From NCBI RefSeq assembly GCF_000835495.1, contig NW_015622541.1, positions 992,001 to 1,056,000 on the forward strand: 64,000 nucleotides of DNA, given 5' to 3'. The notes under the pieces were generated by a model, which was not told the DNA's origin, ran no database searches, and saw only the letters and a list, made by a program, of their open reading frames with translations. The translations under genes were made by a program, and so were the position numbers. The DNA is from Cladophialophora immunda (taxonomy: Eukaryota > Ascomycota > Eurotiomycetes > Chaetothyriales > Herpotrichiellaceae). Of this stretch, positions 1 through 16,573 are shown piece after piece; within the stretch, counting starts at the first letter, position 1; each line of letters opens with the position of its first letter.

Positions 1-1156
1 ACAACAACTTGGATTGACCGGCTCTTGGGAAGTAGCCTCCTGGGCCGTGCATTGCTCAGGCCGTGTCCCCGCTGTCCTTGTTGGTCGATACATCTAGAAC
101 ATTATTACCCCGCTCGCAAACAGGTATCACATGCCAGCAGAAAAGCTGATCTAGAAAGCAGCCCGTACTTGGCACCTATGGCCTCTATGTACCAGCCTAG
201 ACCCCGGCAACAAATGCTGGTGAGGCTAGTAGGCTATCAGGGCCCAGGCCGTAAGAAGTAACTCGCAGCCTGATGTTGACCACCACGCGCCCACCCTACC
301 CAAAAACATATCCCCAACCCTTCGATATCCCTTCAGAAACCAGGAGTGGGAAAAAAGGACAACCCAAAAGAAAAGAGAATGTCAATCAAGCTAAAAAAAA
401 CAATCAACAGCCAGGATTCCCACCTGGTCACCCACGGTAGTACTAACTGGCCGGCATATGGCTTAAGTATGGCTGAGCGAACGGGAAGCCCTGCTTTCCA
501 TATCCTATGGTCGATTGCGGGAGAGAATGTTGCACATGAGTATATATGTTATGCCATTGCATCTAAGGGTTTCCGATTCCATAAATTGTGCAATGGTAAT
601 TAAATCCGTGACCAAGGATCAATCAGTGACCTGCTGTAGTCGTTAGTAAGACAGGTAATCAATTGCAGATCGCAAAGTTTTCCAAACAAAAACATGTTTA
701 TAACTCGAAGAGTTTCATCTTCCCTTTGCGATTTGCGATTTCCTACCAACGTTCCTCTTCACTCGCCGTTTATCCTCTGATCCGTGGCTATGGCGCATGG
801 CGAGTGGCGCAAATCCCACAGAACTCGAAATTCTTCACGCTGTTCCCCCCCCCCTCTCTCTCTCCAATCTATCGACGCTCCTTGGAAGCCACGTCTTCTA
901 GCCATGTTACGCTCTCCACTGCCGACTCTCGCGCTCTAGGCTGGAGAAAACAGTAAATAGGAGAGGGAGACATCCAGCTCGTTCAGAGGTTCGCGTTGAG
1001 CTCGAGAAAGCGCGCCTTCGGTCTGGTCAGGTCAGTGTCAGGTCAGTGTCAGTCTGTCTTGTTGCGACGCCGTTGCCTGTCCGGGCCGGCGCAAGGTCTC
1101 CCCTCGAAACGGTGTTGCAAATCGGGGGGTTCGCCGTCCCTGTCTTCAGAACCGGT

Positions 1157-2018: not shown

Positions 2019-4538
2019 TTATCCCAGCATCTCCACATCGAGGCCGATGGCTCTCATGAACAGGTTGACATTCCCTAGTCGAACGCTCGACATTTCGGGT
2101 GGTAATGTCTTGCTCTGAAGCACTGTCTCCATAACTCTGTCTTTAACACCGATGACCAGCCTCTGTTGTTGGTCGGGGCTGGCGCATATGCCGGTGGCAG
2201 CCAGGAATTGCCAAACGTACATATCGTCACCAGAGTTGACCGGGCCAGGGAATAGAGAACCAAGAAGAGGCTCCAACATGTCAAAAAGGCGACTATATAG
2301 CATGGTCCACTGTTGCCAATCCTGATCACTCACTGACCCAGCCTCCTTCACCAATTCGGCACGGGTCAATAGCATCGTCAGCATACCAAGCCCAATCTTG
2401 GTATGTGCAACGACCGAGATGTTCGTGTGATCGATGAGAAGCCCGAGCAATCCGGTGATGATATTGACGGGTGCTTCGCTAACATGAGATAACAAGCACG
2501 GCATGACGGCTTGTGAGAATAGCTCGATCTCTTCCCGCACAAGGGGAGGAGGCTGTACCTCCCCAGGCGCAGGACGGGCGTCCTTGACTACATCAAGCTG
2601 ATCAAGGTGGACCACAATCATTGTCAAGATGGTCAGTCTTTTGTCCTGATCAATTTGATGGAAGACACGCGGAATGGCCTTCTTGCCTTTGGCAAATGAT
2701 AGAAATGCAATGAAGGGATGAGGAATGGTCGATCCGGGGACTATAGGATCGAGGACCTTGAGATCTTGCCATAGAGTGTTGCCGAGTTCCTGTTGCTTTT
2801 GCCGCCACTCAAGGTGTGCCTGGATTGAATCAGCGTCGCCCTCGGTGGGTGGAGGCGGCATTTGTCGTTCATGATCCTCCAGGCGCATCAGGATCGTGTA
2901 CACAGCTTCGATGTTCTTCAAAATTGTTTTGCGGTCACTGACTCCACTTGCTCGTTTGGCACCTGTTGGTCGGGAGTCGATGCCCTCCTGTCGTTTGATA
3001 TTGAGCAAAGGCTTCGGTGTCTTTGCATTGCTGAATGATATTTTACCCAAGCTACCTTCAATGATCAGCTGCTTATTCTTGGGTTTGAGCTTGGCTGCTT
3101 CAACTGCACGCTGGACTTGTTGCTGCATTCTCTGCATGTGGTTGTCTCCATTGATCTGCTGCCGTCTGCCACCTACACGAGTCCCCGTCTGGAAGAGATA
3201 GGTTTGCGCAAAGTGACCCAGCGGTTGAGTAGGATGTTGTCTTGGAGCGCCGCGGATTTGACTGTAGACCTGGTAATAGAAATCCTCGTTGAGAGCAGCT
3301 TCGGGATTGGAATCCGTGGAGCTCCCTGTAGCCGCTACCAATTGTTGAAGTTGAATTCGAGTGATAAAGTTCTTGTCCTGGGGTGTCATTAACCCATTTC
3401 CTTTGGAAAGCAGGAAGATCTTGTGGTTTCTCTTCGCCCTTTTGGCGTCTTCTTCCAGATATGCTCGTCGCTGTTCTTCAGAGAGTTCCATTAGCTGTTG
3501 AGGATGAGTTATGATTGGCAAGCCACCAGACCCTTGAGGTCCGAGTGGCGGGATAGGTTGAGACCTGTCAAGGCTTGGCTGAGGTGAATGACGGGCCCTA
3601 TTTGGGTTCTGCAGAATCTGGAGCGGCTGCTGAGGCTGCGGAGGCGCACGCGGCTGTGAGGGCATCCGATTGTGGCTTCTAGGACCATCGAGCGGAGGTT
3701 GTGGTTGTGGTTGTGGTTGAGGTTGAGTTGGTAAGCCGGGGGGAAGTCCCATTGGTTGGTAGTGCTGTGGAGATTGTGAATGCATTGGCTGAGTTGGGAA
3801 CGGATATGGCTGAGGTTGAGGGAATGGAAGCTGTGACTGTCTCGCTTGAGATTCACCAAGCATAGCCGCCTCAACCTGTTCAAGGGTCATCATTGGATGT
3901 GGTAACATAGGTGCCGGTGGAGGTGAGGGTTGAGGAGCAGCGGGCAAGGCTGGAGCAGCGCTACGAGCCGTACTGATGCGGCCATCGCCAGACGGAGGAG
4001 CAGCTGTGCTGGACCTGGTGCCCCAGGCCCCAGATTTTGCTTGAATATCTGGAATGTAACCCGGATCTTGATATTTCTCATAACCGGTCTTTTTGGCCTT
4101 TGTGGGTTGCGGAGCCGCTGCACCTGGCGGCTGATGAGGATGTTGCAAGTTATAGCGCATATGCTCTTCATTGATGACATTTGAGACTTGTGCCGTTTTT
4201 CCAAAAAAGTCGTAGTCTTTTCCCACCGAGCCGTGGCCGATTGCGCCCTCGGCGCCACCACCAAAGGTATCGTCGTTGAAGTCATCGCCGGCCTCCTCGA
4301 GTTGATCGCCTAGCCCATCGTAGGTATCTTCGAAGTCAAGACTGGAACGAGGACTTAGTACTGTATGTCTTGCTTGTCAAAGTCGGTTCACTTACATCTC
4401 GTCCTGGTTGTCTTGGAAGGCCTGCAATTTCCGAGCTTTTGCGACTTCGGCGAAGGGGTTTGTGTGCTCAAAAATGCCCTTGCCAGCGCCTTCAGGCTTG
4501 TCCCTGGGAAGGGAAGTATCGAAGCCGAAGAAGGACAT
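2019..4538 (-). CDS. PAT1: PAT1-family mRNA decapping activator, 821 aa
   Basis: Two exons: 4538-4396 (starts MSFFGFDTSLPRDK) and 4341-2019, with a 54-nt intron (donor GTAAGT, acceptor CAG) that restores one frame of 822 codons including TAA. The N-terminal part is acidic and holds the conserved MSFFGFDTSL start; the next ~250 residues are Pro/Gln-rich and probably disordered; the C-terminal half is the helical Pat1 core, with the run IEAVYTILMRLEDHERQ and a helical-repeat-like end. In the family (yeast Pat1, human PATL1) this protein bridges Dcp2, Lsm1-7 and Dhh1, promotes decapping and represses translation in cytoplasmic P-bodies. The start was chosen because the intron joins it in phase to the long frame. 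It is divergent from the KTR gene, sharing a ~950-bp upstream region. Confidence 0.93.
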
Positions 4539-5483: not shown

Positions 5484-6871
5484 ATGGCGACCGGCTCGGG
5501 GAGATATCTTCGTTATATACTCTTTGCGGTTTTTGTGAGTTACACGGAACCCGGCCAGCCCAAGTCTGAGACATTGAATGCTGACTTGACATGAACAGGG
5601 AATTACCATCATCTACTTTATTTCCACCTCGTCACTGCCCTCCTACGCCCAACCACTGACCTCGGGTACGGCCTTCTCGTGGGAACGACCTGGAGAGTCC
5701 ACGCCGAGTTCGAGTACCAACGAGATAGACGATTCCATTCATCTCCCGCAGACGACTTCTGTTGTGGAGTCTTCACAGTCCGAGGAAACAACGACCCCTA
5801 ACGTGATTCCTACCATTCCCTCGGAACTCTCCCCTCCCGCTCCAGGCGAACGAATCAATGCGACCTTTATAACCCTGGCAAGAAACACCGATATCTGGGA
5901 GATAGCCCGCTCAATCAGACAAGTCGAAGACCGCTTCAATAGGAACTACAACTACGACTGGGTCTTTTTGAACGATAAACCCTTTGATGAGACATTTAAA
6001 AAGGTAACGACTTCTCTCGTCTCGGGCAAGACACATTATGGCGAAATTCCCGTCGATCACTGGTCATTCCCGCCATGGATCGATCAAAAGAAGGCTGAGG
6101 CCGTCCGGGAAGACATGCGCCGGAGGAAGATTATCTATGGCGACTCAGTCAGTTACCGACACATGTGCCGATTCGAGTCAGGTTTTTTCTTTCGTCATCC
6201 GCTGCTTCAGCAATTCGAGTACTACTGGCGAGTCGAGCCCAGCATTGAGCTGTTCTGCGATATCCATTATGATCCTTTCCGGTTCATGAAAGAGAACAAG
6301 AAAAAGTACAGCTTCGTCCTAAGCCTGTACGAATACGTCGAGACCATTCCAACGCTGTGGGATAGCACAAAGAAGTTCATCAAGGCGCATCCTGAACACA
6401 TCTCTCCAGATAACTCGATGGGATTTTTGAGCGACGACGGAGGTGACACATACAACAAATGCCATTTCGTGAGTTCTCCAAGAAGTCATTTGTCTTCTTG
6501 TTTCTAATCTTTGTTAGTGGTCAAACTTTGAGATTGGTAACCTCGACTGGCTCCGATCGAAACCTTACATTGACTTCTTCGAAACCCTTGACAAAGACGG
6601 TGGTTTCTTCTACGAACGTTGGGGCGATGCTCCAGTGCATTCCATCGCTGCTAGTCTACTCCTAAGGAAGGACGAGATTCATTTTTTCAATGATATCGCC
6701 TACTACCACGTCCCCTTCACACATTGTCCAACGGGAGAGGACGTTCGCAGGAAACTCCGTTGCCACTGTAACCCGGCCGACAACTTCGACTGGAAGCCGT
6801 ATAGCTGTACATCTCGGTTTTTCGACCTCAACAAGCTTAAGAAGCCCGAAGGGTGGGAGACTCAGGTATGA
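5484..6871 (+). CDS. GT15 (KRE2/MNT1/KTR-type) alpha-1,2-mannosyltransferase, 424 aa
   Basis: Three exons: 5484-5534, 5599-6468, 6518-6868, then TGA at 6869-6871. The second splice rebuilds the family signature CHFWSNFEIG, which confirms it. The product is a type II Golgi membrane protein: a short cytosolic N-terminus, one signal anchor around residues 9-26, a Ser/Thr-rich stem to about residue 80, then the GT15 catalytic domain. The domain begins at [11 protein letters not shown] and includes the motifs [19 protein letters not shown] and FFNDIAYYH; the Glu of SNFEIG is the family's proposed catalytic residue. Such enzymes transfer mannose from GDP-mannose to O- and N-linked glycans of secreted proteins. 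The exact paralogue (KTR1, KTR4 or other) was not decided. The stop codon context is unusual: TGA CTA G, followed by a long open frame in phase (separate entry). Confidence 0.93.
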
Positions 6872-7177
6872 CTAGCCGGCGGTGATGTCGGAAGCCCAGG
6901 CAACAACAATGGAAACGGCGATGGTAACGGCGACAAGCAAAACGAATCAGAGTCAGGCGTTTCCCTGTCGTGGGAGATTTTTAAATATGCATGCATTACG
7001 TTTAGCGTTGGATTGGTCTTGACGATTACTTTGATGAGGATTCCCTGGACGAGACGCAAGTTGCTTTCGTGGGCGGAACGCCTCGCGGAATGGCACGAAA
7101 GCGGACTCGACCGCGACGAGGATGAAAATTGGTACAAAAAGCCGGAGAGGCCTTCAAGGTCGGACAACTCTGGTTGA
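6872..7177 (+). other. In-frame C-terminal extension of KTR beyond a leaky TGA (candidate readthrough)
   Basis: After TGA 6869-6871 the same frame is open for 101 codons, to a second TGA at 7175-7177. Seen in the sequence: a Gly/Asn/Asp-rich linker (about 6878-6958), a hydrophobic stretch of about 22 residues (about 6977-7042; core ITFSVGLVLTITLM), then a basic and Trp-containing amphipathic tail (RIPWTRRKLLSWAERLAEW) and an acidic-to-basic end. This is protein-like composition, not random 3' UTR. UGA CUA is the known readthrough context in fungi and animals, and a following G is often present in the strongest cases. Readthrough would give a 526-residue form. The alternatives are a retained or spliced 72-nt intron (6866-6937, poor AAG acceptor, no good branch site) or a recently acquired stop. 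Confidence 0.6.
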
Positions 7178-8765
7178 TCAGGTGGTTTCAGGGGACCGGG
7201 TCGCGGACCACCTCCTCGGCGCATCGAAGGATTTCCCGGCGTGTTCGGTTTGTTTCTCATGCTCTCAAAGACGTGGAGGCATCAATCCGGCGCCGCCAAC
7301 CACTTCTTTACCTTCGAACACCGTTTGCAGTGGCGGACATCTCAGAAATGGCCTCCGTTGGAGAAATTGGATGGCTTCAGCAGGACAGACATTCAAACCC
7401 ATCTTATACCTACGAGTTACTCAACGAGGAAGTGGTCGAGCACCGAACATCCTGTCCAACAACGCGAAGGAGGCAGAACTGGGATCGTCTAGAGAAGCAC
7501 TGCTTCCTTGGCCCTTTTACTTTTGCATGAGAGGCGTTGGTCAGTGGGTTAGGGCTACGGATTCAGGGATTGGGCTATTGAACTATTGGGAAGAGCGAAC
7601 ACATTGGAGGGAGCATCAAAAAGCTTTCATGGCACTAAGGGAATGAGAGCCTGTGTCCCTCGTCTCCTCTCGTCTCGCACCGCAATGCATTGTGATGCAC
7701 CAGGGCTGGACGATAGAGGCATTTGTGCACTGTGAAGAATGAGCTGGGATGCACGGTATCATTATTCATGGCACGCATTGGAACCCCCCCTGGAGGCAGG
7801 ACGCACCGGTGCACAGTGCACAGTATGTAGTATAGGAAACAAGCGGAACCTGGCCTAGGATCATTCAATCAGAGACGGGTTGTACACATTGGGACTTGAC
7901 ATAATTGCCTCTTTTGACGCTCCTTGTGTGTATATGTCTTCCGCATCTCTGGCCCCTGACACGAGCTTCACGTGGTATGTTTGACATTTTACATTTTACA
8001 TATACATACAAGAGGGGCACTTTCGTCCCGATCCAGGCTACACCTCCATCTCTATTCCATGTCCTCGATACAGTCGCGTTCCCAATCTCAAATCTCCAAC
8101 GCTATCCCTGTGCTCGGCCTCTCTAGCGGCACTTCGTCCTCGATCCAATGCACAGCTCATCTCCAGGCCAGGCGGGCATTTGGTTTTGCGCCACTTTCAA
8201 ATGATCAGGTTAGATCGCGTTGTTTGTAGCGCAAGTACGGTGGACTTCGGTTGCGGGATTGCTCGGCTGGATGGTCCAAAGGTAATATGTTCGTCTCTCT
8301 GGAGTGTGGTCTGTAGGAGCGTGCGAAGGGAGGTGTAGGAGAGAGGATCTGAATTCGGTAGACTGTCATCGAGTGAATGGAAAGGACGATCGTACGGTAA
8401 CATACGCTGAGAGATTGGGTCTGAGTCTGGTTCGGATCCGGGTCCAGATTTGCGGAGCGGCCGTTCTTGCGGTGGGCATAAGGTGGTACCGTAGAGGTGG
8501 ACTTGACTTCCATCCACAGCACCAATTGAGGTGTGTATCCTGTATCAGCACAGGGGACACAGTTGACATCTCGAGGCCCCTCCTGGTTTGCAACCCTTTG
8601 ATCATATGCTGAGAGCACCGTCAATTTAGAGAGACAACGGAAGCTCTACATCTCCTTGCTTCTCACTGATCTCCATTGGCTGTCTTGTCTCTCCGTCATC
8701 TGAACCTGAAGTTGAGTCGGCTTGATCCAGATTCAACCTTCGCTCTGAGAAAGGCCAATCCACGA
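7178..8765. other. Convergent gap between KTR and uS12m
   Basis: Nearly 1.6 kb between two genes that end towards each other. The first ~80 bases still read as Gly/Pro/Arg-rich in the KTR frame, after a second TGA. A minus-strand frame at 8197-8517 looks mildly protein-like but has no ATG start and no recognised homologue. No RNA gene or repeat was recognised. The region should contain both 3' UTRs. Confidence 0.45.
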
Positions 8766-9526
8766 TTATGTCGTCTTCGGCTTCTTGGTGCCGTATTTGG
8801 ATCGACTGGTCATTCGTGTGGGCACACCTCCCTGTAAAGCCATAACGCGGCATCGTCAGTCAATGCTTTTCGTAGACCCATTATACCACTGTTTCAAGAT
8901 CATCCGTCGCACTTCGTCTCTTTTTCCAACACTTTGCTTCCTCGACGCTAGCAAATGCCCCTGATCCGCACTGCCCTGGGCGACGCCACGCCCGAAGAAA
9001 CAGACAAAAAAAAGGACAGAACCGCAGAACTCACCAGATCAAAAGCCCCCCGGACCAAATGATATCTGACACCCGGACAATCCTGGCTCCTGCCGCCCCT
9101 GACTAGAACGACGCTGTGCTGCTGCACATTGTGGCCCTCGCCGGGGATGTACGCGGAGATGACCCTGCCGCTGGACAGCCTGACCTTGGCGGTCTTGCGC
9201 TGACCCGAGTTGGGCTTCTTGGGCTTGGTGATGCCGACCTTGAGGCACACGCCCTTCATGGCGGGCCGGTTGGCGGCGCTGAGCGCCGGGGAGACGGCGT
9301 GGCGGAGTTTCTTGGGCTTGCGCGAGCCCAGGCGCGTGCGGATCTGGTTCAGCGTCACCGCGCGGGCGGGCGTCGTCGAGAAGGCGCGGTGGTGCGGACT
9401 ACACAGCAGCGTCGGTGCCGTGGGAGCTCGGAGGGTCGCTGGTGTAGATTTTGAAGGGGCGGAGATGGTCAGGCGTGTCAGGGCGCGGAGAGCGTGAAGG
9501 GCTCGAAGGGAAGGGACGGGACGCAT
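8766..9526 (-). CDS. Mitochondrial small-subunit ribosomal protein uS12m, 185 aa
   Basis: Two exons: 9526-9035 and 8831-8766, separated by a 203-nt intron (donor GTGAGT, branch CTGAC, acceptor ACAG). The splice joins VRGAFDL to [19 protein letters not shown], the canonical end of S12. Residues 1 to ~60 form an Arg/Ser/Ala-rich mitochondrial presequence ending near AFSTTPARA; the mature part has the S12 hallmarks [24 protein letters not shown] and the [11 protein letters not shown] loop, which belongs to the decoding centre. Its role is decoding fidelity in the mitoribosome. An upstream in-frame GTG exists at 9544, but the first ATG gives the typical presequence, so it was chosen. Confidence 0.95.
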
Positions 9527-10039
9527 CTTGGAGGTTATGGCCACAAAGATATTGTGTTGGCAGATGAGGGAAAGGAAAACAAGAGCGTGGAAGCTGTGAG
9601 GACAAATTTGATGATGCGAGGCATTGAAATCCGAAGCTCCAGTTGGTGCACGGACCTGGAGCTGGCACTAAGCCTAATTCAGTCGCAGCCTCGCAGCCTC
9701 GCAGCCTCTCGGCCTGCTTCACCTCTTCCCCCGAGACAATGTATATGTGGATCTATTCGAATTCATATCTAATGTATCTCTATCGTTTACCTGAGACAGG
9801 ATATTCTCCAGACGTAGTTCCCATCAAAGTCAGGGAGACCTGAGACCTCGCGAGCTGAGGAACGGTGAAGGAAGTGCTGCAGAGCGGCATGGAGGCCCAG
9901 TAGATATTGCTCCGCGAATGCTTCAACAAGCGCAGTGCGTCCGTGAATAGGCAGACTTGCCGCTTCCCGTGACACCGTCCAATGCTGTGTGCTATTCCGC
10001 CGCGTGACTTTTTCGCATCGCACCGTGAACCCCTCTTCT
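9527..10039. other. Upstream region of uS12m
   Basis: This 513-bp gap lies upstream of uS12m and downstream of the GNAT gene. It contains a three-copy 8-bp tandem repeat (unit TCGCAGCC) at about 9683-9706. No gene was recognised. Confidence 0.5.
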
Positions 10040-10762
10040 CTACGCCTCCAGCCTCCTCATCGTCCTCAAATCCTTCCAGAACCACACCTCGTCCACCAGC
10101 CGCCCGTCGCGCGGCGAGTACCCGTACTCCCTGACGACGCCGAGCCTCTCGTAGCCGAGGCGGGGGTAGACGAGCTCGGCGCCGGACCCGACCTCGGTGT
10201 CGAGCATGAGATTCCAGCGGCCCAGACCCACGGCGACGCCCTCGAGCCGGGCCATCAGCTGCCTCGCGATGCCGCGGCGGCGGTGCAGGGGCGAGACGAA
10301 GAGTTTCTGCACGAGGGCGCGGAAGGGCCCGGTCTGCGAGAAGGGCGTCGCCAGGGACACGACGCCGGAGACTTCCAGCTCTTCCGTCCCGGGGGGGTTG
10401 GCTGTCGTGTCAAGAGCGGTGTTGGAGGGAGCCTGGTTGGGTGAAGAGGGGGTTGTCGAGCGGATGACCGGCCAGACTCTTCCCTCGGCGTGCCAGGGCG
10501 CCGGGGCGTCCTTGTCGGTCGTGCGGTCCTTGACTTTGGATAGGCAGATGATGATCTGTCGCTCGCCGCGACTGACCTCCCTCGCACGCTCCTCCCACCA
10601 CTGATAGATCTGGGGGTGTGACAACGGAGGGAGGAACGTGGCCAGGGTGCCGTCGTTCAAGACGCACGAGGCGTGGATGTGGGCTATGCCGTCGATGACT
10701 GAAGAGACATCGGGAGTAGAGGCCGTCAAGAGGTGAATGCCTGGGACAAGGGGCTCAGACAT
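10040..10762 (-). CDS. GNAT-family N-acetyltransferase, 240 aa
   Basis: A single uninterrupted frame with an ATG at 10762 and a stop at 10040. The C-terminal half has the GNAT core: a beta strand followed by motif A, FVSPLHRRRGIARQLM, whose R-R-x-G-I-A loop binds the pyrophosphate of acetyl-CoA, then a strand and helix around WNLMLDTEVGSGAELVY and LGYERLG near the end. Residues ~95-135 form a Pro/Ser/Thr-rich insertion between the N-terminal strands and the core. The acceptor substrate cannot be told; it could be a small amine or an antibiotic-like compound. Many fungal GNATs of this size are uncharacterised. Confidence 0.85.
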   Translation of the reverse strand: MSEPLVPGIHLLTASTPDVSSVIDGIAHIHASCVLNDGTLATFLPPLSHPQIYQWWEERAREVSRGERQIIICLSKVKDRTTDKDAPAPWHAEGRVWPVIRSTTPSSPNQAPSNTALDTTANPPGTEELEVSGVVSLATPFSQTGPFRALVQKLFVSPLHRRRGIARQLMARLEGVAVGLGRWNLMLDTEVGSGAELVYPRLGYERLGVVREYGYSPRDGRLVDEVWFWKDLRTMRRLEA

Positions 10763-11207
10763 GGTTTGTGCAGTCTCCTCTCGCAGAAAGTATTTACTAT
10801 CCAGGCCAAGATGTAGCTTAATTAGATAACTCCCAAATAATAATAAAAAGTCCTGGCGACAAGATGAAATGTACTGCTTATATGGTTATATACTACTCCT
10901 GCCCGTGGCTTGCCCTCTGCATTCTGATCGAGGTAACGTACAACTACCTGGCTCGGGCATGCACGTATGTATTCTGTAGGGCGCGTCTCTATGATGGTCA
11001 CCCAAGCGGGTCCTTTGGATGGCGAAATGTTCCATTTGTAAAAATGCCGGAGCCTGAATGGACGAGATGCGTTTATTGCTCCAGAACTAGAGCATTAGCT
11101 CCAGGCATCCAGCCAGGCAGAAGGACAACGAGAGGAATCTCTCTAATAAGCAGAGTTCGAGTCCAATATGTCAGTCTTTCATGCACCAAGTTCCATCCGT
11201 CTAGCTC
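10763..11207. other. Gap upstream of the GNAT gene
   Basis: Upstream of the GNAT start and downstream of the large orphan gene. It is rather AT-rich near 10800-10860. No exon or RNA gene was recognised. Confidence 0.5.
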
Positions 11208-14200
11208 CTATCGCAACGTCCGCAACGGCAGCACTACAATATCCGCCTCTCCAGGCAATGGATCCATATCTGTCCTACCGCCGTTAGAAGTCCTTCGCGA
11301 GTACAGCGTTGCAGATGTGTAGCCTGCAGGGGGTTCGTCCCTTGTGGGAAGCCTTGGTTGTTCTCCAAGCGGGCCAGATTCATTCCTCAGACTGATTGCC
11401 CGCATATCGTACTGAAGTTGGTCTCTTCTTTTGTGCTCGCTACGCCCGTGTGAAAAATACTCTGTGCTACGTTTGCCTCCGGCCCGGGAGCCGGATTCTA
11501 GACAGTTCTCACGGTGTTCCTGGTTCCTGGTAGAGGAGGCTGTCAATTGGTGTATGGGCAATACTTCGTCGATTCCATAGTCCAGGGGCGACTGCACCGA
11601 AGAGGCACGCACTCCTGCATAAGCACTGTGCCTAAGGGCTGTCCCCACAGTGATAGTCCGCGAGGCTGAGATAGTGTCTCCTGGGAACCGATGCTCGTGG
11701 TTCGTAGAACCGCGCGGGTCTCCTCGAGGCGGTTCTCTATCCTCAGCGTGGACAAAGACCGAGTTTGGCTGGCTGTATAGCCCTTTCGTTGAAGGCACGT
11801 TCGACGCTGGTCTGGTTCTTGTCGGAGCATCAAAGGACTGTCCAAAAATCACCGCACCGCTCTCGAGCCCGTCAAGAACCGGGGCTGGAGGTATTGCTCT
11901 GTTGTGCCAGTGCGATTCTCGCCCGATCTTTTGCAGACGCACGCAGTCACATCGGAATGTTCCTGGAGAGGTGCAAGGCTCGAATAACATTGAGGCGCCC
12001 TGCACCCACTGTAGCTGAGTTGAGGTAAGGTATTGTCTGTGGAGCCGATTGCCAGCAACTTCATAGAGATCCTGCAGGATTTTGACCGTCGTAGCGAGAT
12101 AGCTGTGCTCCTTGGGCATACTCCGCCACTTGAGGCATACATGGTGAAACTGGTCATCTTTCAGAGGACGTAGTATGTCTTCGAATCCACTGGCGAAAAG
12201 AACCAAAGCATCCACATCTCGTACTAGAGCCGGCCAGCCACCACAAGTCCTTCTGAGGGTTGTTTGCTTTGTCCGAAAAGGAGAGCGCTCCTCAACCACG
12301 GACCTGTACTCGTAGCCTTGAAGCACCTCGTGCAGGGGCATATGCATGGCATTACCTGAGGCTTGATCCCTTCTCACGTTCTGGTCCAGTAGAAACTCAA
12401 GGAGGGACCAGTAGTTCAAGATAAGGTCCCTCAAGGTGTACTTTTCAAAGCTGGGGTCACAGAGGTCAAGCGACGCATTTTCCAAGAGTATCTTCTTAGC
12501 AGACTGTCCCGTGGCCTTGGTGCAAGGTAGCAGAACTGCTGAACCGCCGATCTCAAAAGGCTCGACCTGGTTACGGTGGTGGCACATATGCAGGATGACT
12601 TCTGAGGCAGGTACAAGCCATCCCCGTTCATCCGACGTGTCGTAGAGGACAACCAAAGTCTTTTCTGCCGCGCTGACTATTCTCTGGTAAGGACCGGTTC
12701 GCTGAAAGTGGCATTTGCCGTCCTTTGGCCCTAGGGTGAAATCGAGCTGCGCCACGCCAAATTGCTGAAAGCCCAAAGTTCCTCCTGCAAAATTGAACGA
12801 CCTTCCGGCTTCTTTTGCACCCGAGTAATCGATGGACCCGTAGTCGGCATCACGGCTGCCCAGCAAACAACGTGTCGCTGAACACCAACCAAGCACCGCA
12901 CGGGTCTTCTGAAGGCATTCAAAGTCGACTTGGTCCATTAAAGCTCGCCTTGGGCAGCGCTCAAGACCGTCACGATATGAGAGACGCTGCGCAAAGTTTG
13001 CATTGGCAACTAGGTGCCATTGGACTATCTCACCTGTTCTCTCGGTGGGGATAATCATGCTGGAGAATCCCTTGATAACAACTCCCCCGTCATATTCGAC
13101 AGCGCGAACGGCGCCCAACAGAGCGGCCAGAATCTGCAGAGGGATTTCGAGTCCAACCTCATCCTGCCGTCGAGGTATAGGGAAGTCATATGCGATCGAC
13201 GCACCCGAAAAGAGCGGTATCCAACAGGAGTCGGTGTTGGCAGGCAGCGATCTTTTCTGAAAGTCTAACTCAACAACTCCGCGGCTGACAGTGAGGTCCG
13301 GGTGGCAATATGCGACGTTTTCAATGTCGTCAGAAGAACTAATTGCTGCTCCGGCCCAGGCAAGCATCTGAACGAGTTTCCTTATCATGTCCTTGTCCTG
13401 GATGACTTCCATTGTCACCCTGGTCCCAAGGATATCACCGGTGACTATCTGACTCCCGTCACCCCCAACCGGGATACTGAACCCTGCAGGCAAAGAGAGG
13501 TCAGCTTGGACTCAGTGGACCAAGGGGAGATATCAGGCATAGTAACAAAAAGGGTTCGGGCTGTGAAAGGGTATAATCTGGTCCATAAGAGGTCTCCTTC
13601 CCCTTGAAGACAACGCCGAAAGCGCTCTTGAACGCAGAGTTGAAGATTCAACCTACTTTGTGTCGAGTTTGCCCTGTACGAATCCCAAAGGCCTTGCAGC
13701 AAGCGAATGAAAAAGGGGCCATGCCGTGGCCATGTTGTCCGAATGTAGTCGCCGCATGTTGTTGCTTGTGCGCGCAAAACCGAACCGGTGAGTGTGACAA
13801 TTGACTCGACCTTGATGTCTCCTTTGCCGAACTGGCCTTCCAAGGCCTGGAAAAAGGTCCAGCGCAAGCGTATTGACACACCGCGGGCCTTGGAGCCCCG
13901 CAAAGCGAATCGGACTACATGATCAATATTTGAAAATACTTCATCAGGTTCTCCCGTCTGCGGCTCTCTTTTCTCTCCTGAAGTTTCCTCCGAGTCTGAA
14001 GCAATCGTACCGTGAGATGAGTGGTCGCCTTGCAAGCCTCTTTTGTCGTCGGCCTGGGCCTGGTCTGTAGTGGACTCCCTGCTTTGAGGAAGTTGACGTT
14101 CAGATTGAGGGTCATGCACACTGTCTGTTTCGCTGGCAGTGGCTCTGTGGACGTTTTCACCATGGCCCGCTTTGTATTTCGCCCGCTCCAGACGCTCGAG

Positions 14201-14956
14201 ACGTGTCTGAGCCTCTTGATGCCCAACCTTTTCACGCGACAGAAGCTGACGCTGCCGACGCTCTAGAGCTATAAGATATTCAAGCGTTGGAGGCTCCTCG
14301 AACTTCTGAGCTTCCTGACGCTGCCGCTCCAAACGGTCCCGGAGCTCCCGAAGCTCCTGAGCTTCCTGAAGCTCACGCTCCAAACGGTCCCGAAGCTCCT
14401 GATGCTCACGCTCCCGACGATCACGCTCCAGATGGTCACGCCACACAATCTGACGCTCCCGGGGCTCTACAGGTAAAGGATCTCCAAGCCCTCGAAGCCC
14501 CTGGGACTTCCGAGCCTCCTGACGCTCACGCTGCAAACGGTCCCGAAGCTCCACACTCTCACGCTGCAGATGCTCCTGAATCTCCACACGGTGAAGCTCC
14601 CGACGATGCCGACGCTCCGGAAACTCCTGAATCGCCTCACGGTTAAGCTCCCAACGCTCCCAAGCCAGCTGAAGCTGGTATTCCGAAGACTCGTCAAGCT
14701 CGTCGACGACGCGTACCCGACGCGGCTCACTTCGAGGCTTGTATTCGTCGCCCTTAGCAGAGAAAAGCCGCTTGGGACGGTTGTCAACGGTATGGAGGAC
14801 GTCCTCCGACTGGATGGGACTGCGATAGGCTCTCGCATTGAGGCTATCCATTGCCCTGGTGGATGTATCGGTGGTGTCGCTTTCACTAAGGACGGGGTAT
14901 TTCGCCACAGGCTCTCCCGGAGGGTGAACATCTCGTTCGCGCGAGCTCGAAGCCAT
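11208..14956 (-). CDS. Large fungal-specific protein of unknown function (two frames, probably one spliced gene)
   Basis: Two long frames lie head to tail: 14956-13445 (ATG at 14956) and about 13493-11208, in different phases with a 49-bp overlap. They look like one gene. The best splice I see runs from donor GTAGGT at 13656 to acceptor CTGCAG ending at 13484 (173 nt, branch GCTGAC) and gives 1191 aa; a frameshift or another donor is possible. The first part is an Arg/Glu/Gln-rich coiled coil (about residues 100-280, repeats of the type LRDRLERE), then an acidic linker and a globular region with TLTGSVLRAQATTCGDYI and WPRHGPFFIRLL. The second part is globular to about its residue 500 (LVQMLAWAGAAI, WLVPASEVILHMCHHRN, LILNYWSLLEFLLDQ), then Ser/Arg-rich and disordered. 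I recognise this as a class of uncharacterised fungal proteins, with no assigned function. Confidence 0.65.
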
Positions 14957-15552
14957 GGCTGAACAATCAGCACACACTGTCGAAGGTCGGAGCTCCAAAT
15001 ATGCTCAGTTAAATGGCCTAGGTCTGGAAAGACGCTCTGTGGACAGGGCTTGAATTTGTAACTTGAAATCCTCAACAAAAAGGCAGATGAGGCTGAGAAG
15101 AAGAGAAGAGAAAAGTCACAAGTCCTGTCCGTGACATGTTGGCCCCGGTGAGGCTGACCAGGTAAGCAACAATGAATACGCCCTGCACAAGTTCCACAAA
15201 TAGGATCGATCAGTCGAAATGGCGGCGGAGCTTAGCGACGCACTGTCTGAAGCAGGATACCGGAAATGTGCCAATAACTTGCAGGTGGGATTGCAGCCGA
15301 GACTAGAGTGGGTGGATTGTGAGGCGCAGTGAGAGCGTCTCGCTTCGGGCCACGCAGCCTTGTAGTTGGTTGAATATCCCTGTGGAATATGCACCTGCAT
15401 AGCACGGTGTACTCGACGGGTATCGAGACAAGAATCTTCCGGCGATCATCCCATGGAAGGCAAAACTACTCCCAGTGGCCATATCTTTCGCATTTGCATC
15501 GAAATCTACCCGTCCATCACCATTCTTGGGGTATTCTCGGGCATACTGGGGT
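14957..15552. other. Gap between the orphan gene and the SDR pseudogene
   Basis: About 600 bp holding the upstream region of the large orphan gene and the 3' side of the SDR locus. Open frames here are short and show no domain. Confidence 0.45.
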
Positions 15553-16573
15553 TCATCCGTGCATTTCCAACCCACCCGTGCCATGGATGGTCTCACCCGT
15601 GAAGTATGATCCCAGAGGTGACGCCAGAAATATGTACGCTGTGGCCATTTCAACAGGCATACCCGGTCGTTGGAGCGGCGCCTCCTCGACTCCCAGCGCA
15701 CTCATTGCTTCAGGCGGGTTGCCTTTCGTAGCAGGCTGAAGAGGAGTCCAACTATCATCGCAGAGAGAAGGTCAGTAATGCGTAACGATGCGACAGAAAA
15801 GAGGTCTTTTCGAGACAGCTGTGGCGAACGTACATGATTCCAGGTGCAACAGCATTGACCCTGATACCCTTAGGCGCCAGCTGCTGCGCCAGACTCCGCG
15901 TGAAAGTTGTGATCGCTCCCTTAGTCGAGCTATAATCCAAGAGCTGAGGATTGCCCATGTATGCAGCCACCGAGCTCGAATTCACGATACTCGATCCGCG
16001 CTTCATATGGGGTAGTGCATATTTGACCATGGCAAACATGCTCAGGATATTAGTGCGAAAAGTCTTTTCCACAACCCCGAGATTGATGTCTTGAATGTCA
16101 TTGCAGATCTCTTGCATCGCCGAATTGTTGACGAGGACAGAGAGCTTGCCGAATTTCTTCATGTGTGCCTCGACAACCTTCTTGCAGTTCTCTTCCGAAG
16201 TGACATCCAGAGCAAGCGGTTGAGCTTGCCGGCCCGCCTTTTCGATCTGAGCTTTTGTCCATTGGGCATCTTCCTCTTCTTCCGGGAGATAGACGAAGGT
16301 GATGTCGGCACCTTCGCGTGCCATGAGCACGGCAGCGGCGCGTACAATGCCACAATCCCCGCCCGTTACAATCACGGCTTTGTCCTTGAGCAACCCTCGG
16401 CCTTCATAATCTTTCAGAAAAGGGGCTTTCCCTTCGTCGTCCCAGAACTCGAGTTACGTCCAGTTTGCATTTGGCGCAAGTTTCGAATCCAGTCCTTTAC
16501 CGCCTTCTTGGTTCTGTTCCTTCAGCGGGCTTGCCGGATAGGCAGTTGGAGCTGCCTGTGGCTTGTCCGACAT
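15553..16573 (-). pseudogene. Short-chain dehydrogenase/reductase, interrupted by an in-frame TAA at codon 40
   Basis: Two exons (16573-15834 and 15751-15553; donor GTACGT, acceptor TAG) would code 312 aa ending GGLEMHG. The frame has a typical N-terminus (MSDKPQAAPTAYP), then TAA at 16454-16456, then continues in the same phase with LEFWDDEGK and the whole SDR fold. Visible parts: the Rossmann entry VIVTGGDCGIVRAAA, the NNSA motif, the catalytic Ser in IVNSSS, Tyr and Lys in YSSTK, and the C-terminal GRP/FLASP-like segment. Besides the nonsense codon, the third Gly of the TGxxxGxG cofactor loop is Val. No later Met precedes the cofactor loop, and no intron I could build removes the stop in frame. 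It looks like a recently decayed NAD(P)H oxidoreductase gene of the fungal YghA-like type; a sequencing error could explain the stop but not the Gly-to-Val change. Confidence 0.8.

Follow-up and report, generated by a model that had tools for sequence, protein, structure and literature searches.

Translational read-through of UGA stop codons has been described in fungi, vertebrates and Drosophila, and we draw here on excerpts of the published reports. In Ustilago maydis, UGA CUA is sufficient for read-through, with UGA CU as its core, and Tpi1, Rpe1, Art1 and PGK gain cryptic peroxisomal isoforms through UGA followed by CU(A), which gives one enzyme a second location. These extensions end in a PTS1, the excerpt describing no membrane anchor, and for Art1 and Rpe1 read-through targeting occurs in other fungi too (PMC4207609). 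In vertebrates, UGA CUAG supports efficient read-through, as measured in reporter assays, in four genes, AQP4, OPRK1, OPRL1 and MAPK10, all of which have kept the motif throughout the vertebrates; the codon preceding the stop is always GUA in AQP4 and mostly so in OPRK1. The vertebrate extensions are short (13 residues in MAPK10, typically 28 in AQP4), and in the excerpted part of the report the authors' own TargetP run gave no targeting motif for the four (PMC4132726). In Drosophila, ribosome profiling published in 2013 yielded eight read-through extensions with a predicted transmembrane helix; footprints exist for these, the function tests given in the excerpt covered nuclear signals, and read-through was reported for yeast and humans as well (PMC3840789).

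Here we describe a KTR/KRE2-type gene of Cladophialophora immunda (genome size 42.2 Mb, 39 contigs), located within a window of 64,000 nucleotides that was analysed as a whole. Its stop stands in the same UGA CUAG context as the four vertebrate genes and shares the preceding GUA codon with AQP4 and OPRK1. In contrast to the reporter-measured vertebrate cases, it is known from sequence, and the 101 codons left open behind it exceed the vertebrate extensions in length (PMC4132726). Unlike the Ustilago extensions, these codons include a predicted transmembrane segment.

Gene structure and protein end

The three exons of the gene (Table 1) join to encode 424 residues. The protein matches the Pfam family Glyco_transf_15 (PF01793) with an E value of 9.2e-138 and 459.5 bits against a cut-off of 25, which assigns it to GT15, and its PDB match is yeast Kre2 (1s4n, E 1.8e-119). 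On hydropathy, the protein is predicted to start with a short cytosolic part and a single signal anchor (maximum Kyte-Doolittle value 2.05 over the N-terminal 35 residues). Members of the KRE2/MNT1-KTR family are type II membrane proteins, whose N-terminus faces the cytosol and whose catalytic domain faces the lumen. The gene agrees with that family and with yeast Kre2 in its catalytic domain, in its anchor near the N-terminus and in the place where the protein ends. Among the matches listed, the nearest protein is from Cladophialophora yegresii (424 aa, 87% identity over 100% of the query), followed by those of Exophiala species. By sequence, the gene is an ordinary Kre2/Mnt1-type Golgi alpha-1,2-mannosyltransferase.

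Table 1. Features of the KTR/KRE2-type gene and of the frame behind its stop codon, in window coordinates.
Feature	Position	Strand	Basis or remark
KTR/KRE2-type gene, exon 1	5484..5534	+	ATG at 5484; joined-exon translation
KTR gene, intron 1	5535..5598	+	64 nt, GTGAGT ... GCTGAC ... CAG
KTR gene, exon 2	5599..6468	+	joined-exon translation
KTR gene, intron 2	6469..6517	+	49 nt, GTGAGT ... CTAAT ... TAG
KTR gene, exon 3	6518..6871	+	conserved C-terminus and stop TGA (6869-6871)
N-terminal signal-anchor codons	5514..5625	+	residues about 11-26; split by intron 1
Glyco_transf_15 catalytic domain	5797..6715	+	residues 84-373, spans intron 2; PF01793
High-read-through stop context GTA TGA CTA G	6866..6875	+	sequence; published motif
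In-frame extension, 101 codons	6872..7174	+	joined-exon translation
Gly/Asn/Asp-rich linker, 30 codons	6872..6961	+	carries nearly all coding-like signal
Possible N-glycosylation sequon N-E-S	6941..6949	+	lumenal side of predicted helix; from translation
Predicted transmembrane segment	6977..7036	+	extension residues about 36-55; then R..RRK
Basic/Trp amphipathic stretch	7037..7102	+	cytosolic if made; model helix 58-77
Second in-frame stop, TGA	7175..7177	+	joined-exon translation

The initial annotation had the GT15 gene ending in GTA TGA CTA G with 101 codons open after it, which proved right to the base (CAG 6863-6865, GTA 6866-6868, TGA 6869-6871, CTA 6872-6874, G 6875), and its count of 526 residues, should the first TGA be read, was confirmed. 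The divergent neighbour of the gene encodes PAT1 (Topoisomerase II-associated protein PAT1; 2022-4376, minus strand) and covers positions 43-862 of the 862 in the profile within a single open stretch of 785 codons. A 5S ribosomal RNA gene lies at 399-518 (minus strand, 80 bits); filamentous fungi commonly carry dispersed 5S copies. Rightward, the next recognised gene is marked by a Ribosomal protein S12/S23 exon (8951-9667, minus strand) and is convergent with the KTR gene. Further minus-strand exons, at 10043-10885 and 15758-16453, belong to a GNAT acetyltransferase and a short-chain dehydrogenase, and overlapping open stretches of 767 and 519 codons (11211-13511 and 13448-15004, minus strand) have no Pfam match at E 0.001.

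To locate the usual end of the protein, we surveyed the 120 best-listed homologues of 5600 matches, of which 119 carry a C-x-C landmark (P0063 lacks it and was excluded). The stop falls 25-39 residues past the landmark in 118 of these 119; the longest protein past it, P0107 (69 residues), has an unrelated end, and none of the 119 bears an extension as long as the one considered here. The 12 closest records listed (P0001-P0012, from six species, seven of the records being Exophiala dermatitidis) all end in QV, so the last codons before their stops should be CAR GTN; as protein records, homologues give the end position alone and not the stop context. Alignment to the crystallised yeast Kre2 chain (1s4n) reaches residue 421 of 424, and that chain ends 4 residues on. 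Both comparisons put the C-terminus of the enzyme at the family's usual place, and on their evidence the TGA at 6869-6871 is an old, conserved protein end.

The search for relatives of the extension itself was negative. Scored within the full-length frame against proteins of about 289-920 aa, it had nothing similar in any of 63 candidates; sought as a small protein (about 70-220 aa) together with the 25 residues past its stop, it was absent from all 10. Neither the end survey nor the protein search shows extension-like sequence past the stop, and thus no listed homologue or candidate of about 289-920 aa has the stop turned into a sense codon. Were the extension useful and old, such a version might be expected now and then. 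We found no second copy or related extension elsewhere in the genome, no match in NCBIfam or the PDB and no relative among viral contigs, and the three Pfam matches were all far below the cut-offs (best E 0.067). Scanning viral contigs and a set of genome contigs with the KTR protein likewise yielded no relative. Because the protein search depends on shared words of five residues, it could overlook relatives that change fast. The absence of database relatives is weak evidence, since an extension made by leakage alone would go unannotated.

Stop codon context

UGA CUA had been proposed as a read-through context from the outset, and this holds, as the same kind of context has been found to leak in a fungus (Ustilago) and in vertebrates. 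The likeness extends over ten bases, GUA UGA CUAG being identical to the AQP4 read-through stop. In the same report, 4 of 23 human UGA-CUAG stops have positive PhyloCSF (PMC4132726), so that the motif itself raises the prior for function. According to the excerpts, such contexts give rates in mammalian cells of 0.6% to a few percent, with OPRL1 at about 31% (PMC4207609, PMC4132726, PMC4359377, PMC12233894), and bases beyond the motif alter the rate several-fold (PMC12233894).

Judged by this context, the stop is probably leaky. The level of leakage in C. immunda is a guess, the rates in the excerpts being mammalian; that the 526-residue product is made in small amounts may reasonably be expected. 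No stable RNA structure was predicted 3' of the stop, where three stretches gave z values of +0.34, +1.29 and +1.97, weaker than the shuffle mean.

Predicted topology of the extension

The hydrophobic segment of the extension reaches a best 19-residue Kyte-Doolittle mean of 1.83, compared with 2.05 for the N-terminal anchor region. A second membrane anchor had been suggested on this basis, and the topology is coherent: the linker, with a sequon assigned by the N-glycosylation motif rule, would be lumenal, and R, RR and K behind the hydrophobic segment would suit a cytosolic tail. The read-through product, if made, could be anchored at both ends. A single-sequence AlphaFold2 model predicts three helices in the extension (residues 31-55, 58-77 and 81-87), with a mean pLDDT of 67, which is compatible with the proposed topology and goes no further.

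Chance and coding potential of the open frame

We estimated how often such an arrangement would arise by chance. Among 59 crude ORF ends, 28 are TGA, none is TGA CTA, and 4 are followed by at least 101 open codons, which makes long open frames in that position no rarity; these counts are rough because many such ends probably lie inside introns. In the low-ORF pool, CTA has a frequency of 0.0153, and an open frame of at least 101 codons starts at 2.7% of positions (0.5% in a dinucleotide model). With 10000-14000 genes per genome, TGA CTA followed by such a frame would be expected by chance in 1.9-2.7 genes. Hydrophobicity as high as that of the extension occurs in 1.8% of 163 simulated open frames and in 9.7% of 299 real ones of 95-115 codons, the extension among them; adding the hydrophobic segment lowers the expectation to about 0.04-0.26 genes per genome, and requiring CTAG (0.0022 per base) in place of CTA lowers it several-fold further.

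The frame stayed open in 1215 of 60000 dinucleotide shuffles of the extension (2%), and among these open shuffles 0.7% reached its codon score, 0.3% its hydrophobicity and none both, with 6% matching its lead over the five remaining frames. Calibration tempers this result. Both tests at the 1% level were passed by 3 of 120 frames contained in long genes that are read in a different frame, which are almost surely non-coding, and by 3 of 140 other open frames (120 of 123 and 140 of 333 such frames were scored); the codon test alone was passed by 18% and 12%, respectively. Since control frames also pass both tests, the shuffle values overstate the case.

Taken over its whole length, the extension scores best of the six frames and resembles coding sequence modestly. 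In a cross-validated three-periodic model its percentile is 20 among 271 coding segments and 87 among 451 open frames that lie outside long ORFs. In the codon model, used without cross-validation, the percentiles are 36 (250 coding segments) and 93 (508 other open frames, a set that includes the extension itself and some real small exons). As a likelihood ratio, coding is favoured 2.8-fold when the comparison is with 123 frames inside long genes and 4.0-fold when it is with 336 frames elsewhere.

This signal is unevenly distributed. By part, the codon score is 0.203 in the linker, -0.063 in the helix and 0.017 in the tail. The linker DNA is triplet-like and of low complexity, and its reverse complement scores higher still (0.246), so the signal there lacks strand specificity. 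Helix and tail together (71 codons) score -0.009, which is percentile 15 among 365 coding frames and percentile 83 among 956 others, and a different one of the six frames does better there; being near neutral, the part proposed to do the work shows little independent sign of coding. The earlier view that the continuation is built like protein is partly supported, modestly for the frame as a whole and little for helix and tail.

Past the second TGA the frame reopens for 104 codons (7178-7489, plus strand), with a start that is protein-like by eye. The first 25 codons past 7177 score -0.10, and 102-base windows in the same frame reach up to +0.031; just one window of the extension is higher (+0.053). 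The true exon 3 itself has windows below zero, and with positive windows past the second stop this means that the method resolves little at window scale. Other downstream frames, of up to 174 aa, were considered as coding and rejected, their codon scores being below zero.

Interpretation

The likeliest reading, to which we give slightly better than even credence, is that a conserved stop leaks at a low level into a 3' frame that is not under selection. A small minority of ribosomes, possibly around one in every hundred, would pass UGA CUA G, a near-cognate tRNA pairing at UGA to put in an amino acid, and translation would go on. The 101 codons would most likely be 3' untranslated sequence open by chance, or a young frame of the lineage. 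The main product would be the enzyme of 424 residues with its single anchor at the N-terminus; the rare 526-residue by-product, if stable, would enter the membrane with a second helix and expose a tail to the cytosol, and it might be degraded or mis-sorted. In favour of this reading are the conserved protein end, the lack of relatives or copies of the extension in the searches above, the restriction of the coding-like signal to the linker, the weakly positive windows past the second stop, the frequency of long open frames and the leakiness of UGA CUA in Ustilago. Against this reading stand the scarcity of the joint features by chance (0.04-0.26 genes per genome), the 2.8- to 4-fold preference of the codon score for coding, the first rank of the frame among the six over the whole extension and the PhyloCSF record of human UGA-CUAG stops.

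The first alternative is functional read-through, in which a selected minor isoform would have its catalytic domain anchored at both ends and a basic amphipathic tail would change Golgi retention, clustering or recycling. The ten-base identity with the AQP4 stop (PMC4132726) favours it, as do the fitting orientation (lumenal acidic/Asn linker with sequon, hydrophobic segment, R..RRK) and the percentiles of the whole extension in both coding models. The missing coding signal and inferior frame rank of helix and tail, the higher score on the opposite strand of the linker, the absence of a sense-codon version from the listed relatives and the absence of RNA structure after the stop argue against it, and we consider it possible and, on balance, doubtful. 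That read-through is programmed in the black-yeast lineage, yielding a doubly anchored Golgi mannosyltransferase isoform whose amphipathic cytosolic tail tunes Golgi residence, we rate as unlikely.

Alternative splicing could in principle remove the TGA and join the extension as a normal exon. CAG|GTATGA is a plausible 5' splice site, and an in-frame removal of 72 nt (6866-6937) is possible. In the next 430 bases, however, the in-frame acceptors that keep the helix are 6937 (AAG), 6952 (GAG) and 6976 (GAG), all ending in purine-AG; none of the three has a branch-point match or a pyrimidine-AG end, and two are preceded by few pyrimidines. The gene's own introns differ, with GTGAGT donors and CAG or TAG ends, and no protein with the spliced, joined form was found among the 63 candidates. 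From these sequence features, removal of the TGA by splicing appears unlikely, and we assign this explanation a very low probability. It is similarly improbable that the frame is left over from an independent small gene or an earlier exon beside the KTR gene: it looks protein-like by eye and reopens past its own stop with windows up to +0.031, but we see no start exon that would belong to it, the score is negative over the 25 codons that follow 7177, and neither a homologue (protein database, PDB, Pfam) nor a second copy in this genome was found.

The initial annotation regarded the addition of a second membrane anchor by read-through as a use not seen described. Read-through extensions with predicted transmembrane segments are known from Drosophila (PMC3840789), and in this respect the claim was too broad; for Golgi glycosyltransferases, no report of read-through was found among the papers listed by a full-text literature search. 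Among the best 10 of 2290 literature matches, no paper connected Chaetothyriales with read-through. The kind of event is thus known, and what would be new is a selected case that alters the topology of a Golgi enzyme.

If low-level leakage into an unselected frame is the correct reading, the locus counsels caution, as even a textbook leaky motif with a long open frame behind it, protein-like in look and carrying a helix, can still be the work of chance. If the extension is selected, read-through would do more than add short targeting peptides, in that it would change how a lumenal enzyme sits in the membrane, and the fidelity of translation could influence Golgi glycosylation and, through it, the fungal cell wall.
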